Part shown: positions 22,689 to 59,199 of the stretch, piece by piece
Layout: each line of letters opens with the position of its first letter
Numbering within the stretch: the first letter of the stretch is position 1
Assembly (NCBI GenBank): GCA_009785325.1
Contig: WQWN01000005.1
Coordinates: 1-64,000, forward strand
Origin: Candidatus Saccharimonadota bacterium
GTDB lineage: Bacteria > Patescibacteriota > Saccharimonadia > Saccharimonadales > Saccharimonadaceae
Reading direction: 5' to 3'
Length of the DNA: 64,000 nucleotides
Program-made: the position numbers and the translations under genes
The notes under the pieces: generated by a model
The model's database searches: none
Seen by the model: the letters and a program-made list of their open reading frames with translations, nothing else
Told to the model about the DNA's origin: nothing

Positions 22689-22777
22689 CACATACCTCCT
22701 AGTCTCTTCTAATTATACCCCTCCCGCCACTTAAAGATCAAACTCTATAAACTCCATCGACTCCCTTCTCACAAAAT

Positions 22778-22790
22778 ATACTAATGTCTA
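22778..22790 (+). promoter_or_regulatory. Surface-family promoter box (degenerate) of the remnant gene
   Basis: ATACTAATGTCTA matches the box ATGCTAATGTTTA found about 60-75 nt before three other surface-protein genes. No good -35 lies at the expected distance. Confidence 0.5.
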
Positions 22791-22858: not shown

Positions 22859-23086
22859 ATGCGAATCAAAACAAAAACACTCAGCAAGTTACCCTATATA
22901 GTAGTTACTGCAGTGCTAGGAGTTTTTTCAGCCCAGACTCTAGTATTAAATTTAATCGATCCAGCACATCAAGCAGGAATAGTAGATGTTACTGTACGTA
23001 CCCTACACGGATCAGTCACCTTATATCAATCATATACTTTCATAGACTTACCAGACGTGCCGAATACGGGACATGAACGCCCCTAA
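22859..23086 (+). pseudogene. Collapsed RCC1-type surface-protein gene (leader joined to C-terminal tail)
   Basis: 75 codons. The first 36 (MRIKTKTLSKLPYIVV..) are the N-terminal leader of the RCC1 surface proteins, with VFSAQTLVLNLIDP. From HQAGIVDVTV to the end they are the C-terminal half of the TIG domain and the VPNTGHERP tail, closely similar in DNA to 59.09-59.19 kb. The RCC1 propeller is missing. A short shared CCA at the junction suggests deletion by recombination. The leader GCGAGAGGAAG before ATGCG is kept, so a 75-aa exported peptide could still be made. It lies between ddl and hisS. Confidence 0.75.
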
Positions 23087-33170: not shown

Positions 33171-35307
33171 TCAAAAACTATCTGACCAGAAATCAGCTGC
33201 ATCACTTAGAAATCTCATACTAGGCACATTGCGAAGGGAGCTTCTTGCTGCATCTTGAATAGTCCCATCACCAGGTCCACGCCTAACCTTTTTATTCTGT
33301 TTCGCAATGCGGCGCTCCCAGGGGCCTTGCTCCTCCCAGCTCTCCACATCCCCTAAACTTTCATTAACAGCTCTCTCATAACCCATCTTTATCAAACGTT
33401 TAGCAAGTTTCTTACGATTCAGCCCCTTAATCTTACCTAAATACTTCGCTATAGCCCAAGCATCTCCATTCTCAATTGTTTTGTCAACAATCTCTTGAAG
33501 ATTATCCAAACCTTCAAATTTCTCCAAGTTAAACACTATCCGGCGTGCGCTACCTTTCTCAACTAGTCTATCCGCAAGGTCCTGGTGGTTTAGCCCTTTG
33601 AATTTTTCTAGGCTACCCGCTACAGACCACTCCTTGCCTGCTTCAATCAATTGATGGGCAATGTCGAGACTCAACTCTTCAAATTTCTTTAAGTGTTCAG
33701 CAACAGCATCGATATCACCCCTCTCAATCATCTTGCTCGCAAGTCCCTGATAGTTTATTCCTTTAAACTTTTCCAGATTCCGCACTATATTCCAGTTATG
33801 CCCGCCCTCAACCAACTTATCCACGAGCTCCTGATGGTCTATTCCTTCAAACTTTTCAAGGTAACGCGCAATATTCTTACCATCTCCGCTTTCAAGAAGC
33901 TTATCTACAAGCTCCTGATGGTCTATTCCTTCAAACTTTTCTAAACTATAAGCTATACCTTGCCCATCTCCAGCTTCAATTAATTTATCCACTAGCTCTT
34001 TATGGTCCAACCCTTCGAACATTTCAAGGCGTTCCGCTACATTCGAACCTCGTCCTGCCGCGATAAACAGGTCAATTACATCATGATCACTGCTCAGCCC
34101 ATCAAATTTATCCAACTTATCAAGAACATATCCACCATGTCCTTCCTTTATTATCTTATAGGCAGTTTCTTGATTTAAGTTTCCGAAATTATCAAGACAC
34201 CCCGCTACAGTCCACACACTCCCCGCCTCAATCATCTTATCGGCTACTTCTTGAGACAACTCTTCAAAATGCCTTAATAAATATGAAGAACCCCTCAGTC
34301 GACTACTATCCTTTTCGAGGATACTAATAGCGGCTTCTGACCCCAGGCCTTCAAACTCGTCTATATTGCGAATAGCATACGAAATCCCGTGTTCTTCTAG
34401 CATATTAATAAACTCACGATCACTATTACTTACTTCAAGCTCCTCTATAGTACCTCCTCTTTCAGAAGTGTTTTCGGCAAGTTTTTCGGATGATTCTTCA
34501 CCTAACTCTTCTACATTATCAGGCCGCGCTTCCGGTGATCCATCAAATTCAAATTCCGACTCTTTATCTGTTAAACTTTCGCCCTCGTCACCCTCCATCA
34601 GCCTCACTTTATTTATCGCCGCCGCACCCTTTGCTGAAATCGTTTCAGCACTTATCTCCTCTCCACCAATCTCTATACTGCCCTCTGTTTCAATACCGCT
34701 CTCGATACCAACCATAAATATCTTCTGAGCCGTCCTCATCTGCGAGATGTCTTTTTCCTGTTCCACTTCAGGAAGCTTAGCAAACGCGTCACCGTACCGA
34801 ACTTCTTCACCTTGTTTATTCAGTACAGGATTTCCTTCTCTATCTTTAATTACCGCGCCTCTTTGCCACGAATTCCTCTCTACCCAAGCTGTATGAATCT
34901 CCTCACCGACACGGTCATAGGTCTCTGCATCTGACAGGTCAACTTCACTGCCTTCTCGCTCTAAAATCCCTACAATTACTTCCGCTGCGGCCTTATTCTC
35001 AGCTTGCCAATGTTCAGGCAAATCCGCATACGAAGTGTTTGCGATGTCGACACTCTGTAGTACTCGATCCCCCCCCCGTAACATCCGCCTCGTTCTTCCA
35101 CTTACTTCCTCCCTCTACTTCTACCTCTACTTTCACACGAGGGCGATAAGTTCCATCTTCATTACGAAAATTCTCATTACGCCACTGGTCGTGAAACTCT
35201 GAACCTAGCTCCGCCACTGCACTATTTCGTATTTCAATCATCTCTGGACTGTCTTTTGTTTCAGGACTATCTGTAAGATTGTACTCAGGTGTTAATTTGT
35301 TTGGCAT
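33171..35307 (-). pseudogene. Helical-repeat protein gene switched off by a G9 frameshift (possibly phase-variable)
   Basis: Two track ORFs (35014..35307 and 33171..35084) are in different frames and meet at nine G (minus strand) at 35069-35077. Eight or eleven G would join them into about 711 aa. The N-terminal part is acidic (MPNKLTPEYNLTD..) with GAGAGGAAG before the ATG. The C-terminal part contains about twelve helical units of about 31 residues of the type LEKFEGIDHQELVDKLVEGG, resembling a solenoid. No signal peptide or catalytic motif is seen. As sequenced, the first ORF ends after 97 codons; the second ORF has its own ATG just before the G run, so a truncated product may exist. Sequencing error in the run is a real alternative. 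Confidence 0.75.
35069..35077 (-). repeat. Homopolymer G9 tract (C9 on plus strand)
   Basis: Nine consecutive C on the plus strand inside a coding region, at the exact point where the reading frame is lost. A change of minus one restores the long frame. Confidence 0.85.
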
Positions 35308-35515: not shown

Positions 35516-35548
35516 TTGACCCAGTCCCCCCGACATGCTAATGTTTAC
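35516..35548 (+). promoter_or_regulatory. Surface-family promoter of RCC1 gene 1, with C6 in the spacer
   Basis: TTGACC, 17 nt (CAGT-CCCCCC-GACATGC), TAATGT; the box ATGCTAATGTTTAC is shared with three other surface genes. The leader has GCGAGAGAAAG before ATGCG, also shared. Confidence 0.75.
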
Positions 35549-35607: not shown

Positions 35608-37203
35608 ATGCGAACGCTAAATAGAAAGATATTAACTAGATTGCCGTTTATTACTGGTGTGGGAGTGATAGTGTTCGCCTCACTACAGACATTAGCTGTC
35701 AATTTAATTAATCCAAACTATACAGCTACCGCACTATCTATTACATCCATCACTTCTGAGTATGGCCCTGTTGCTGGTGGGCAGACTGTTACTATTACTG
35801 GGGATTTTGGAGTATCTGCTAATCCGCAAATATCAGCTGGCAACAATCATACTCTCGCCCTAGATAGTAATGGGCAACTCTGGGCATGGGGATATAATTG
35901 GCTGGGTCAATTCGGCAATGGAACAACAACTAGTAGTAGTATTCCAGTCGCTATAGATATGTCTGAGACCTTTGCCGATAGAAATATTGTACAGATAGTG
36001 GCATCTTGTAACGAACATTCACTTGCCTTAGATAGCGAAGGTCAGATTTGGGCATGGGGGTGGGGTTCTGAAGGTCAACTCGGTAATGGAACTAACACCA
36101 GTAGTAACGTGCCAGTCGCAGTAGATATGACTGGAGCTTTAGCAGGAAGAACTATTATTCAGGTAGCTGCCGGCTGGGGTCACTCACTAGCACTAGATAG
36201 TGAAGGTCAAGTATTTGCGTGGGGTAGTAATTGGTATGGTCAACTTGGCGATGGTACGAATACTAGTAGTAATGTCCCGGTTACTGTAGATGTTTCTGGT
36301 ATGTTCGCTGGGAGGGATATTATACAGATAGCAACTGCTAGTGCTCACTCACTTGCTCTAGATAATGATGGCAGTATATTTACATGGGGGCGGGGTATAG
36401 AAGGACAACTCGGCAATAATACAAACACTGGCAGTAACGTGCCAGTCGCAGTAGATATGACAGGTGTACTTGCTGGTAGTGATATTGTGCAGGTAGAGGG
36501 TGGTGGGAGTTTCAGTTTCGCCCTAGATAGTGCCGGTAGAGTCTTTTCATGGGGATGGGGGTTAAATGGCGAACTTGGTAATGGTGCGAGTGTTAATGTT
36601 AATATCCCAACTGCTGTAGATATATCTGGTGTATTAGCTGGAAGAACTATTGTGCGGGTAGCATCTGGTAGACAACATGCGCTTGCTATAGATAGTGAAG
36701 GACAGATTTTTACATGGGGACTCAACAGCAGTGGTCAGCTCGGCAATGGCACAATAGGCGGCATTTACAATACTCCAGTTGTGGTGGATATGACAGGTGT
36801 ACTTGCTAGTAGTGATGTTGTTCAAATAGCGGGTGCTTTTGGGAGCGGTTTGGGTCGCTCTGTTGCTCTGGATAGTGAAGGAAATGTGTTTGCTTGGGGT
36901 AGTAATTGGAATGGTCAACTTGGTAACGGCACTAGTGGCTGGAATGCCTATAGTGCTGTTCCTGTATTTATCATGAACCTAGGAGTTCCTACCAACCCCA
37001 TCCAATCCGTAACTCTCGGCGGTCTCTACTGTACAAATATTCAGGTAATTGACCCTAATACAATCACATGTATAGTACCAGCTCATCCAGCAGGAACAGT
37101 AGACGTGGTAGTTAATACACTACATGGATCAGCTACTCTATATCAGGGATATACCTATGTAGACATTCCTGATGTGCCGAATACGGGGCATGGGATGGCT
37201 TAA
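35608..37203 (+). CDS. RCC1-propeller surface protein 1 (RCC1 inserted in a TIG domain, VPNTG tail)
   Basis: 531 aa. N-terminal leader/span at about residues 10-32 (LPFITGVGVIVFASLQTLAVNL). Residues 45-72 are the first half of an IPT/TIG domain (SITSEYGPVAGGQTVTITGDFG). Seven RCC1 blades of about 54 residues follow, each with HSLALDSEGQ.FAWG and GQLGNGTNTSSNVPVAVDMTG. At about residue 465 the TIG domain resumes (VTLGGLYCTN..TITCIVPAHPAGTVDVVV), and the protein ends in DIPDVPNTGHGMA. VPNTG resembles a sortase signal, but no membrane span or basic tail follows. It is probably exported; the ligand is unknown. It shares leader, promoter and tail with the loci at 22.9, 45-47.5 and 57.6 kb. G-rich coding differs from the C-rich host genes. 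Confidence 0.85.
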   Translation: MRTLNRKILTRLPFITGVGVIVFASLQTLAVNLINPNYTATALSITSITSEYGPVAGGQTVTITGDFGVSANPQISAGNNHTLALDSNGQLWAWGYNWLGQFGNGTTTSSSIPVAIDMSETFADRNIVQIVASCNEHSLALDSEGQIWAWGWGSEGQLGNGTNTSSNVPVAVDMTGALAGRTIIQVAAGWGHSLALDSEGQVFAWGSNWYGQLGDGTNTSSNVPVTVDVSGMFAGRDIIQIATASAHSLALDNDGSIFTWGRGIEGQLGNNTNTGSNVPVAVDMTGVLAGSDIVQVEGGGSFSFALDSAGRVFSWGWGLNGELGNGASVNVNIPTAVDISGVLAGRTIVRVASGRQHALAIDSEGQIFTWGLNSSGQLGNGTIGGIYNTPVVVDMTGVLASSDVVQIAGAFGSGLGRSVALDSEGNVFAWGSNWNGQLGNGTSGWNAYSAVPVFIMNLGVPTNPIQSVTLGGLYCTNIQVIDPNTITCIVPAHPAGTVDVVVNTLHGSATLYQGYTYVDIPDVPNTGHGMA

Positions 37204-56313: not shown

Positions 56314-57483
56314 CTACGAAGTCTGGTCCAACACCCGATTCGCCTGCCGCACCATCTGTCGCGCCTCGTCCGTCTTCACTACATATACCGTCGTCGCCGA
56401 CCCTTTCGCGCTCACCACCTCAGCACTCCCTTCATTCGCCACCTCATCCACTTCTACCCCCAAATACCCCAGCCCCTCCATCACCGCCGTCCGCACCACC
56501 ACACTTCTCTCCCCGATAGTCGCCGTAAACACGATCGCGTCTACCCCACCTATCACCGCTGCCATCTGCCCGATCGCTACCTTTATCTTCCGCACATACA
56601 TCCCAAAAGCCAGCTCCGCTCGCTCATCCCCAGCACTCTTCGCTTCAATCAACTCCCTCATATCATCCGTCGACCCACTCACTCCTAACATCCCAGCTGA
56701 TTTATTCAAATACTTCTCCAGTTCCTCATCGCTACCCAGGCCCAGCGCTCGCTTCACCGCCATCCCTGCTGCCACATCCATACTCCCCGCCCTCGTCGCC
56801 ATCATCACACCCTCCAGCGGCGAATATCCCATCGTATTCTCTACGCTCTTCCCATTCAACACTGCCGTCACACTACTCCCACTCCCCACATGACAAACAA
56901 TCAACTTCTCAGGCAAAACCCCACGTTCCTCCAAACTTTCCACCACACTCGCCACACTCAGCCCGTGATATCCAAACCTCTTAATCTCAAATTCATCCGC
57001 TAGCTCTTTATCAATAGCATAGTAATTCGCCGCATCTGGCTTCCCAGCATGAAACGCCGAATCACTCACACTCACCACCTTCGACTTTTTAAACGCCGCC
57101 GCCAGATATTCAATTTCCCGAGCCATATTTGGCGCATGTAGCGGCGCCCGCTCTTTCGCCACCTCCAGCCTCTCCACATACTCCGCATCCACAATATGAT
57201 CTTTCGCAAAATACCCCCCCGGCGCCACCATCCTCACCACCACCGCATCTGGCTCTTCGCCTTCCTTCAAAACTCCCTCAGCCACCAAAACATCATGTAA
57301 AATCCCCACCACCTCTCCCAGCTCCTTCACTCCCACCTCCACACTCTTCCCATTTAGCCCACAAACAATCTCCCCATCCTCAAACTCAAAATGCAACGAC
57401 GCCACCACCTCTTCCCCGCGATAAATCGCATACTTCCTACTCGAACTCCCCGGATTCGCCACAATTACCAACCTATCAGACAT
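56314..57483 (-). CDS. ackA: Acetate kinase
   Basis: 389 aa from ATG 57483 (MSDRLVIVANPGSSS), which has AAAGGAG 6 nt before it; the track ATG two codons upstream abuts the AGGAG. Motifs: VIVANPGSSSRKY, VSDSAFHAGKP, RFGYHGLSV, CHVGSGSSVTAV and GYSPLEGVMMATRAGSMD. The enzyme converts acetyl phosphate and ADP to acetate and ATP. xfp, which makes acetyl phosphate, lies 1.9 kb upstream on the same strand, so together they yield ATP from sugar phosphates. A G7 run lies in the coding strand near 57215. An RCC1 gene on the other strand separates the pair. Confidence 0.96.
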   Translation of the reverse strand: MSDRLVIVANPGSSSRKYAIYRGEEVVASLHFEFEDGEIVCGLNGKSVEVGVKELGEVVGILHDVLVAEGVLKEGEEPDAVVVRMVAPGGYFAKDHIVDAEYVERLEVAKERAPLHAPNMAREIEYLAAAFKKSKVVSVSDSAFHAGKPDAANYYAIDKELADEFEIKRFGYHGLSVASVVESLEERGVLPEKLIVCHVGSGSSVTAVLNGKSVENTMGYSPLEGVMMATRAGSMDVAAGMAVKRALGLGSDEELEKYLNKSAGMLGVSGSTDDMRELIEAKSAGDERAELAFGMYVRKIKVAIGQMAAVIGGVDAIVFTATIGERSVVVRTAVMEGLGYLGVEVDEVANEGSAEVVSAKGSATTVYVVKTDEARQMVRQANRVLDQTS

Positions 57484-57528
57484 TCTCATCTCCTTTTCTT
57501 TTACCCAATTCTACCACACCTACCTCTA

Positions 57529-57560
57529 TTGACTACCCCCCCCGACATGCTAATGTTTAT
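57529..57560 (+). promoter_or_regulatory. Surface-family promoter of RCC1 gene 2, with C8 in the spacer
   Basis: TTGACT, 16 nt (A-CCCCCCCC-GACATGC), TAATGT; ATGCTAATGTTTAT matches the other surface loci. Gain or loss of a C would alter the -35/-10 spacing. Confidence 0.78.
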
Positions 57561-57618
57561 ATATAAAGATTGTGCAAGTATAATTTTTAAGTTCATATCA
57601 ATAAGGGGGTTCGGTGCG

Positions 57619-59199
57619 ATGAAAATATTAAAACATTATTTAATCAGACTATCATCTTTTACTGCAATAGCAGTGATGGTAGTTTTTTCAATACAAACGA
57701 TCATACTTAATATGATTAATCCTACAGAGACCGCTACAGCACTCTCGATCACATCGATTACTCCAAACATTGGATCAATAGACGGTGGAGAATTAGTCAC
57801 TATTACTGGGGACTTTGGGATACCTACTGATGTTCCGCTGAACATTGTGGAGATATCGGCTGGGACTAATCACACACTTGCCCTAGATAGTAATGGTCAG
57901 ATTTGGGCTTGGGGAGCTAATGGTAATGGTCAACTAGGTAACGGCACTAATACGGCCAGTAGCGTTCCAGTTGAAGTAGATATGACCGGGGTACTTTATA
58001 GTAGAGATATTATACAAATAGTGGGCGGTGCTCCACATACACTCGCCCTAGATAGCGAGGGACAGATTTTTGCATGGGGACTCAACACCTCGGGTCAGCT
58101 CGGTGATGGCACAAACACCAATAGTAACATCCCAGTCGCAGTAGACATAACCGGAGCGCTTGCTGGGAGGAGGGTCGTACAGATAGCGGCCAGCCACCAT
58201 GCTTCCCTCGCCCTGGATAGTGAGGGTCGAGTTTTCTCTTTTGGAGGAAACTGGAGTGGTCAGCTCGGTGATGACACAAACATAAATAGCAATATTCCAG
58301 TTGAAGTAGATATGACCGGGGTACTAGCTGGAAGGAGGGTCGTACAGATAGCAAGTGGGAATGAGCACTATCTCGCCCTAGATAGCGAGGGACAGATTTT
58401 TGCATGGGGACTCAACACCTCGGGTCAGCTAGGTAATGGTACTTTTACTAACAGTAGCGTTCCAGTTGAAGTAGATATGACCGGGGTACTAGCTGGGCGA
58501 GATATTGTGCAAATCTCAACCAGTACCAGTCACTCTCTCGCTCTAGATAGCGAAGGTAGGATCTTTACATGGGGGAATGGCGGGAGTGGTCAACTAGGTA
58601 ACGGCACTAATACGGCCAGTAGCGTTCCAGTTGAAGTAGATATGACCGGGGTACTAGCTGGAAGGAGGGTCGTACAGATAGCGGCCGGGGGCGATCACAC
58701 ACTTGCCTTAGATAGTAGTGGTCAGATTTGGACTTGGGGGGGGAATGCTAACGGACAGCTCGGTGACGGCACTAATACAGCCAGCAACGTTCCAGTTGAA
58801 GTAGATATGACTGGTGTACTTGCTGGACGAGATATTGTGCAAATGACGACTGGGAATAGCTACTCTCTCGCCCTAGACAGTGAAGGTAGAGTTTTCGCAT
58901 GGGGAGCTGGAGGAGCATTCGGTAATGGAACAAATACAGGGAGTAACGTTCCAATAGCTATTACCAACTTCGGACAAGGTTTAATAGATTCACTTGATCT
59001 TTCTGTAACTATGGGTGGTAGTCCTTGTACTAATGTAAGAGTAGTTAATCCAACTACAATAACCTGTATCACTCCAGCACATCCGGCAGGAGTAGTGGAT
59101 GTTACTGTACGTACCCTACACGGATCAGTCACTCTATACCAGTCATACACCTTCATAGACTTACCAGACGTGCCGAATACGGGACATGAGAGATTGTAG
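57619..59199 (+). CDS. RCC1-propeller surface protein 2 (RCC1 inserted in a TIG domain, VPNTG tail)
   Basis: 526 aa from ATG 57619, which has AAGGGGG upstream; the track start lies before the promoter, inside ackA. Leader/span at about 10-35 (FTAIAVMVVFSIQTIILNM). First TIG half SITPNIGSIDGGELVTITGDFG, seven RCC1 blades (such as HSLALDSEGRIFTWGNGGSG), second TIG half VTMGGSPCTN..TITCITPAHPAGVVDVTV, end LPDVPNTGHERL. A G8 run (about 58736-58743) lies within blade 6. No membrane anchor follows VPNTG. The blades are highly repetitive at DNA level. The gene splits ackA from xfp. Confidence 0.87.
   Translation: MKILKHYLIRLSSFTAIAVMVVFSIQTIILNMINPTETATALSITSITPNIGSIDGGELVTITGDFGIPTDVPLNIVEISAGTNHTLALDSNGQIWAWGANGNGQLGNGTNTASSVPVEVDMTGVLYSRDIIQIVGGAPHTLALDSEGQIFAWGLNTSGQLGDGTNTNSNIPVAVDITGALAGRRVVQIAASHHASLALDSEGRVFSFGGNWSGQLGDDTNINSNIPVEVDMTGVLAGRRVVQIASGNEHYLALDSEGQIFAWGLNTSGQLGNGTFTNSSVPVEVDMTGVLAGRDIVQISTSTSHSLALDSEGRIFTWGNGGSGQLGNGTNTASSVPVEVDMTGVLAGRRVVQIAAGGDHTLALDSSGQIWTWGGNANGQLGDGTNTASNVPVEVDMTGVLAGRDIVQMTTGNSYSLALDSEGRVFAWGAGGAFGNGTNTGSNVPIAITNFGQGLIDSLDLSVTMGGSPCTNVRVVNPTTITCITPAHPAGVVDVTVRTLHGSVTLYQSYTFIDLPDVPNTGHERL

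Follow-up and report, generated by a model that had tools for sequence, protein, structure and literature searches.

Comparison with described systems

The opc gene of Neisseria meningitidis possesses a poly-C tract in its promoter (Sarkari 1994, cited in PMC2791445), and in porA and fetA of Neisseria homopolymers located between the -10 and -35 boxes are thought to alter sigma-factor binding (cited in PMC2791445). In the small genomes of Campylobacter and Helicobacter, G/C runs serve as slippery switches at contingency loci (PMC8355987, PMC2823697), and slipped-strand variation was discussed for a hypervariable repeat gene of a Gracilibacterium, i.e. another CPR lineage (PMC6851277).

The locus analysed here belongs to a Saccharibacteria genome (678 kb in seven contigs, a 76% complete draft), of which one 64-kb stretch is hereafter called the window. 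As in opc, a C run lies between the -35 and -10 boxes of a gene for a putative surface-type protein, and, as in porA and fetA, relatives of the source genome place G runs between their promoter boxes. Length-dependent expression was measured for opc, however, whereas here it is a prediction; opc is a single gene, whereas the runs found here are short (6-9) and belong to a nine-member paralog family; and porA and fetA are unrelated genes from an unrelated phylum (all three cited in PMC2791445). Likewise, G/C runs in a small genome recall the Campylobacter and Helicobacter loci, but these include runs within genes (PMC8355987, PMC2823697), whereas ours lie mostly in promoter spacers, with one intragenic G9 candidate at 35069. 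Finally, in Gracilibacterium coding repeat arrays change the protein (PMC6851277), whereas here promoter spacing would be concerned.

The RCC1/TIG genes of the window and their promoters

Two window genes encode proteins with RCC1 repeats and a TIG domain, above the curated Pfam cut-offs. These genes and their promoter elements are as follows:

35516..35521, + strand: -35 box TTGACC of RCC1 gene 1 (from the sequence)
35526..35531, + strand: C6 tract in a 17-nt promoter spacer (from the sequence)
35539..35544, + strand: -10 box TAATGT of RCC1 gene 1 (from the sequence and paralog comparison)
35608..37203, + strand: RCC1/TIG protein 1, 531 aa (Pfam RCC1 2.7e-79, TIG 1.9e-10)
57529..57534, + strand: -35 box TTGACT of RCC1 gene 2 (from the sequence; TTGAC kept in 8/9 full-length paralog promoters)
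57536..57543, + strand: C8 tract in a 16-nt promoter spacer, among the genome's eight C/G tracts of at least 8
57551..57556, + strand: -10 box TAATGT, preceded by an extended-position TG (TGC-TAATGT); conserved among the paralogs, where 16-19 nt separate it from the -35 box
57619..59199, + strand: RCC1/TIG protein 2, 526 aa (Pfam RCC1 2.4e-84, TIG 1.4e-14)

The promoter of gene 2 (57529-57556) reads TTGACT-ACCCCCCCCGACATGC-TAATGT, i.e. TTGACT-A-C8-GACATGC-TAATGT, and that of gene 1 (35516-35544) reads TTGACC-CAGTCCCCCCGACATGC-TAATGT, i.e. TTGACC-CAGT-C6-GACATGC-TAATGT. The tracts reported by the first-pass annotation are thus indeed present: at 57.5 kb the spacer measures 16 nt and contains a C8, at 35.5 kb it measures 17 nt and contains a C6, and the -10 box TAATGT is common to both. 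These two promoters are the only places in the window with the 22-mer CCCCCCGACATGCTAATGTTTA, which was absent from all of 100 shuffles. TAATGT itself is a weak consensus match, missed by a 9-of-12 promoter scanner, and its credibility as a -10 box comes from its conservation, together with TTGAC, across the paralogs. Searches of Rfam with positions 57400-57750 and of plasmids with the promoter region returned no match.

Coding-frame switching at 57.5 kb was also considered, the RCC1 frame being open upstream through the C8 tract to an ATG at 57391. This was rejected: the N-termini of the paralogs, a sequence resembling a ribosome site and the promoter common to the family all indicate a start at 57619, and the C8 tract was therefore taken as non-coding.

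Each of the two window proteins has a hydrophobic segment at its N-terminus and a short tail that stops near PNTG, the C-terminal end of protein 2 being ...DVPNTGHERL. All nine paralog proteins stop a few residues past PNTG, with no membrane anchor; in a relative from another genus (G005, L151), PNTG is followed by a hydrophobic stretch and a basic tail. A search of named genomes with protein 2 retrieved only distant RCC1 proteins (24-34% identity). RCC1 repeats have also been noted in the pilus-associated protein PilX2 of TM7x (PMC12206443).

A promoter shared by nine paralogs

The two RCC1 genes implied by the first-pass annotation turned out to be part of a larger set, as the genome contains nine full-length RCC1/TIG genes, the other eight being 55-73% identical to protein 2, plus one remnant. 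The remnant and the tract promoters outside the window are:

22757..22787, + strand: remnant promoter TCGACT-N19-TAATGT, with no C tract of at least 4 (from paralog promoter comparison)
22859..23083, + strand: remnant gene, with a signal segment joined directly to the family's last ~46 residues
C1:174352-174359 and C4:59089-59097, outside the window: C8 and C9 runs in the tract promoters of two paralogs

In the remnant the RCC1 repeats are deleted, and a 90-aa open frame contains a match, at 85% identity, to protein 2 residues 480-525. Upstream of eight intact genes stand TTGAC, 16-18 nt and then TAATGT or TATTGT; upstream of the ninth stand TTGTCT and TAACGT. Indeed, the pattern TTGACN14-20GCTAATGT has seven matches in the genome, every one of them before an RCC1 gene, versus none for the reversed control. 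The downstream leader is partly common to the paralogs as well (AGAGTG, then CTGCGAGAGAAAG in several of them).

A C tract of at least 6 is found in four of the ten family spacers (nine paralogs and the remnant), namely C8, C8, C9 and C6, where the count of nine includes two bases at the end of the -35 box. The other six contain no C run longer than four, most of them being pyrimidine-rich, so that the tract is not a fixed feature of the family promoter. Spacers with a tract measure 16, 16, 16 and 17 nt, and those of intact genes without one 17-18 nt. In one paralog pair (C3:13922 and C4:59238), both flanks of the tract are common, with CTCCTCTCCCG in one member versus a C9 run in the other.

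Placement of long tracts in the genome

Runs of C are expected on this DNA, since GC skew is about -0.45 over much of the window: C5 runs number 70 and C6 runs 8, versus 11 G5 runs, in the 64-kb window. For this reason, the C6 at 35.5 kb is unremarkable by itself. Runs of C8 or longer number only two in the window, with one G8 in addition.

Across the genome, we counted eight separate C/G tracts with 8 or more residues, four of which lie between -35 and -10 boxes. From window composition, 0.024 such placements were expected among the eight, and the P-value for four is about 6e-9, a figure that treats the tracts as independent, which the paralogs are not. The between-box tracts are three in RCC1 promoters and a G9 at C2:51129; the latter, and a further long tract in the window, are listed here:

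G000:C2:51119-51149 (L073:5620-5650): TTGACA-AAATG9TTGTGT-TATTGT, 19-nt spacer, flanked by a gapA-like and a membrane-protein gene (names given by sequence resemblance, not by family search)
35069..35077, - strand: G9 tract (C9 on the + strand) where a single gene passes from one reading frame to another

These placements bear on the possibility that the tracts result from chance and strand bias, C runs being common on a C-skewed strand, spacers tolerating any sequence and copies spreading through duplication of the gene family. The skew, the many C5 runs and the pyrimidine-rich character of most other spacers agree with such an origin, as does the common ancestry of the paralogs, whose three RCC1 tracts do not count as independent cases. 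However, half of only eight long tracts in 678 kb lie in promoter spacers, one of these is a G9 before an unrelated membrane-protein gene, and in relatives (see below) G tracts dominate and matches outnumber the reversed-pattern controls by about ten to one. This explanation, already disfavoured, is thus rather unlikely.

The G9 promoter at C2:51129 precedes a 421-aa membrane protein, and its spacing looks long, possibly that of a weak or OFF form. The gene at window positions 33171-35307 (minus strand) is split into two frames exactly at the G9 of 35069, and its homolog in G011:C18 forms one open frame across the junction; this G9 is a candidate for either a coding contingency tract in an out-of-frame state or a sequencing error. 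The remaining three of the eight tracts, each a run of 8, lie in intact coding frames (58736 in the window, C6:14431 and C2:47232).

Tract promoters in related genomes

The family survey comprised 394 genomes, source genome included, with one assembly per species and the source genome alone in its genus; tract lengths were accordingly compared between paralogs and across species. When the exact promoter core was searched with up to three mismatches, only 3-mismatch matches appeared, in 10/393 relatives. The promoter sequence thus seems to be this genome's own, and the tract arrangement is shared with relatives. Indeed, in the 394 genomes the pattern TTGAC-N0-7-C7-N3-11-TANNNT has 34 matches versus 7 reversed controls, and its G version 107 versus 7, i.e. 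141 versus 14 together, counts that include the own genome and overlapping rows. Several genomes contain many tract promoters (G072, G005, G019, G027, G033 and G020). Phylum-wide, the G pattern was detected in only 10/287 genomes, and it is therefore sporadic outside the family. In one distant phylum member (G431), at least four promoters are of the type TTGACAAAA-G8/9-TGGTATAAACT (L217, G431:C75 and further contigs).

The loci read comprised 104 distinct tract promoters; their tracts are 7-17 residues long, and their spacers, mostly of 14-20 nt, peak at 16 and 19 nt. One promoter type of the largest genus precedes secreted-type or leucine-rich-repeat (LRR) proteins with tracts of G8, 9, 11, 11, 14, 14 and 19, and for an eighth promoter of this type (G322) the contig begins inside the poly-G; spacers are 14-20 nt in 6/8. 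For G238, a TTGACA or TAGACA located a few bases upstream of the pattern match is the more probable -35 box, which would give a spacer of 18-20 nt.

These promoters precede a variety of genes: RCC1/TIG genes with G tracts in two other genera (G005, G041), genes for TIG proteins (G020), LRR proteins (G313), N_methyl pilins, and Fib_succ_major and Listeria-Bacteroides-repeat (Flg_new) proteins (G238, G348). An N-terminal hydrophobic segment was predicted for 36/88 targets versus 28/168 background ORFs (P=3.5e-5, with a crude predictor and a crude background). Several other targets look cytoplasmic or transport-related, with phosphoribosyltransferase, permease or inositol phosphatase domains. Within the same gene families, the tract is made of C or of G depending on the genus; one family of small multi-pass membrane proteins has a C9 promoter in two genera (G072, G027) and a G9 promoter in a third (G005; handles L105, L144, L154), which suggests separate origins.

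Conceivably, the C/G run could be a fixed functional element, such as a protein-binding site or a DNA shape, that sets promoter strength and does not switch. Some genomes are indeed very uniform, as in G072, where all eight C promoters have C9-C10 tracts and 19-20 nt, and the -35 and -10 boxes are strictly conserved around the run. Yet tract lengths range from 7 to 19 across the family and are unlike on otherwise matching promoters within one genome (G8/G12 in G066, G10/G14 in G348, G16/G17 in G280, G9/G10 in G005). C or G occurs alike before homologous genes, and six of the ten RCC1 family members have no run at all, all of which makes a fixed element quite improbable.

As for the lengths being sequencing or assembly artefacts, the assemblies are drafts, the poly-G at the contig start of G322 looks artefactual, and nanopore assemblies err mainly by homopolymer indels (PMC9600527). 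Such errors, however, alter the length of runs and do not create them preferentially between TTGAC and TANNNT, and we hold an artefactual origin to be highly improbable. Contig ends also crowd tract promoters (9/16 nearby ends lie within 200 bp, P=7e-5), which is consistent with repeated sequence or with mixed tract lengths, without telling which.

Probable phase variation of the RCC1/TIG genes

Taken together, we consider it probable that the C8 of gene 2 (57.5 kb) and the long tracts of two paralogs elsewhere in the genome (C8 and C9) are contingency tracts in sigma-70-type promoter spacers, altering transcription by slippage. Slipped-strand mispairing at replication would add or remove C residues, left unrepaired for lack of MutS; such changes would shift the -35/-10 distance off its present near-optimal 16 nt, and the changed spacing would raise or lower transcription of one RCC1/TIG protein, presumably located at the surface. 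Since the promoter is common to the nine paralogs but its tract length is not, a population would contain cells that express different subsets of them, presumably with some benefit. Against this reading stand the family promoters with no tract (six of ten), the closeness of the RCC1 tract spacers (16-17 nt) to those without a tract, the C-richness of the strand, the non-surface targets among relatives, the weak -10 box and the draft state of the assembly.

A search of 21 genomes, the source genome and 20 relatives (16 of the 21 being of high quality), detected no MutS_V domain, which is present in 11/14 control genomes; frequent unrepaired slippage would therefore be expected. Frequent slippage usually needs a tract of about eight or more residues, a length reached by the C8 at 57.5 kb and by the C8 and C9 of the paralogs, the C6 lying below it. 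From these sequence features, phase variation appears well supported for the C8/C9 promoters and weak for the C6 at 35.5 kb, which at this length is probably largely stable and would seldom switch.

The first-pass annotation had proposed opc-like phase variation for both window genes, with on/off control. The opc-like part is supported by tracts lying exactly between promoter boxes, by the concentration of long tracts there genome-wide, by their recurrence before surface-type genes of relatives, by lengths that differ on matching flanks and by the failure to find MutS; it is weakened by the six tract-less family promoters and by the shortness of the C6. On/off control fared less well: all RCC1 tract spacers being near the optimum, the assembly shows no clear OFF form.

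At a larger scale, the chances appear evenly balanced that Saccharibacteria of this family, which appear to have no MutS-based mismatch repair, possess sets of promoters throughout the genome that slip independently of one another (up to about a dozen per genome), which would randomise the surface adhesins and pilins of each cell as an episymbiont strategy. For ultrasmall episymbionts with very small genomes, which meet different hosts, promoters of adhesin-like genes that can switch would be a simple way to generate variation. If this proposal is true, slipping promoters would represent a general episymbiont strategy for dealing with varied hosts or phages. Homopolymer phase variation is apparently unreported for Saccharibacteria: the literature searched, from which most subscription papers and preprints were absent, contained no report of it for Saccharibacteria, Patescibacteria or TM7.

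The C8 tract at 57.5 kb also has a second neighbour. A divergent acetate kinase gene on the minus strand possesses a candidate promoter, TAGTCA-N16-TAGAAT preceded by TG (window 57508-57535), whose candidate -35 box abuts this same C8, so that tract length might affect both genes.
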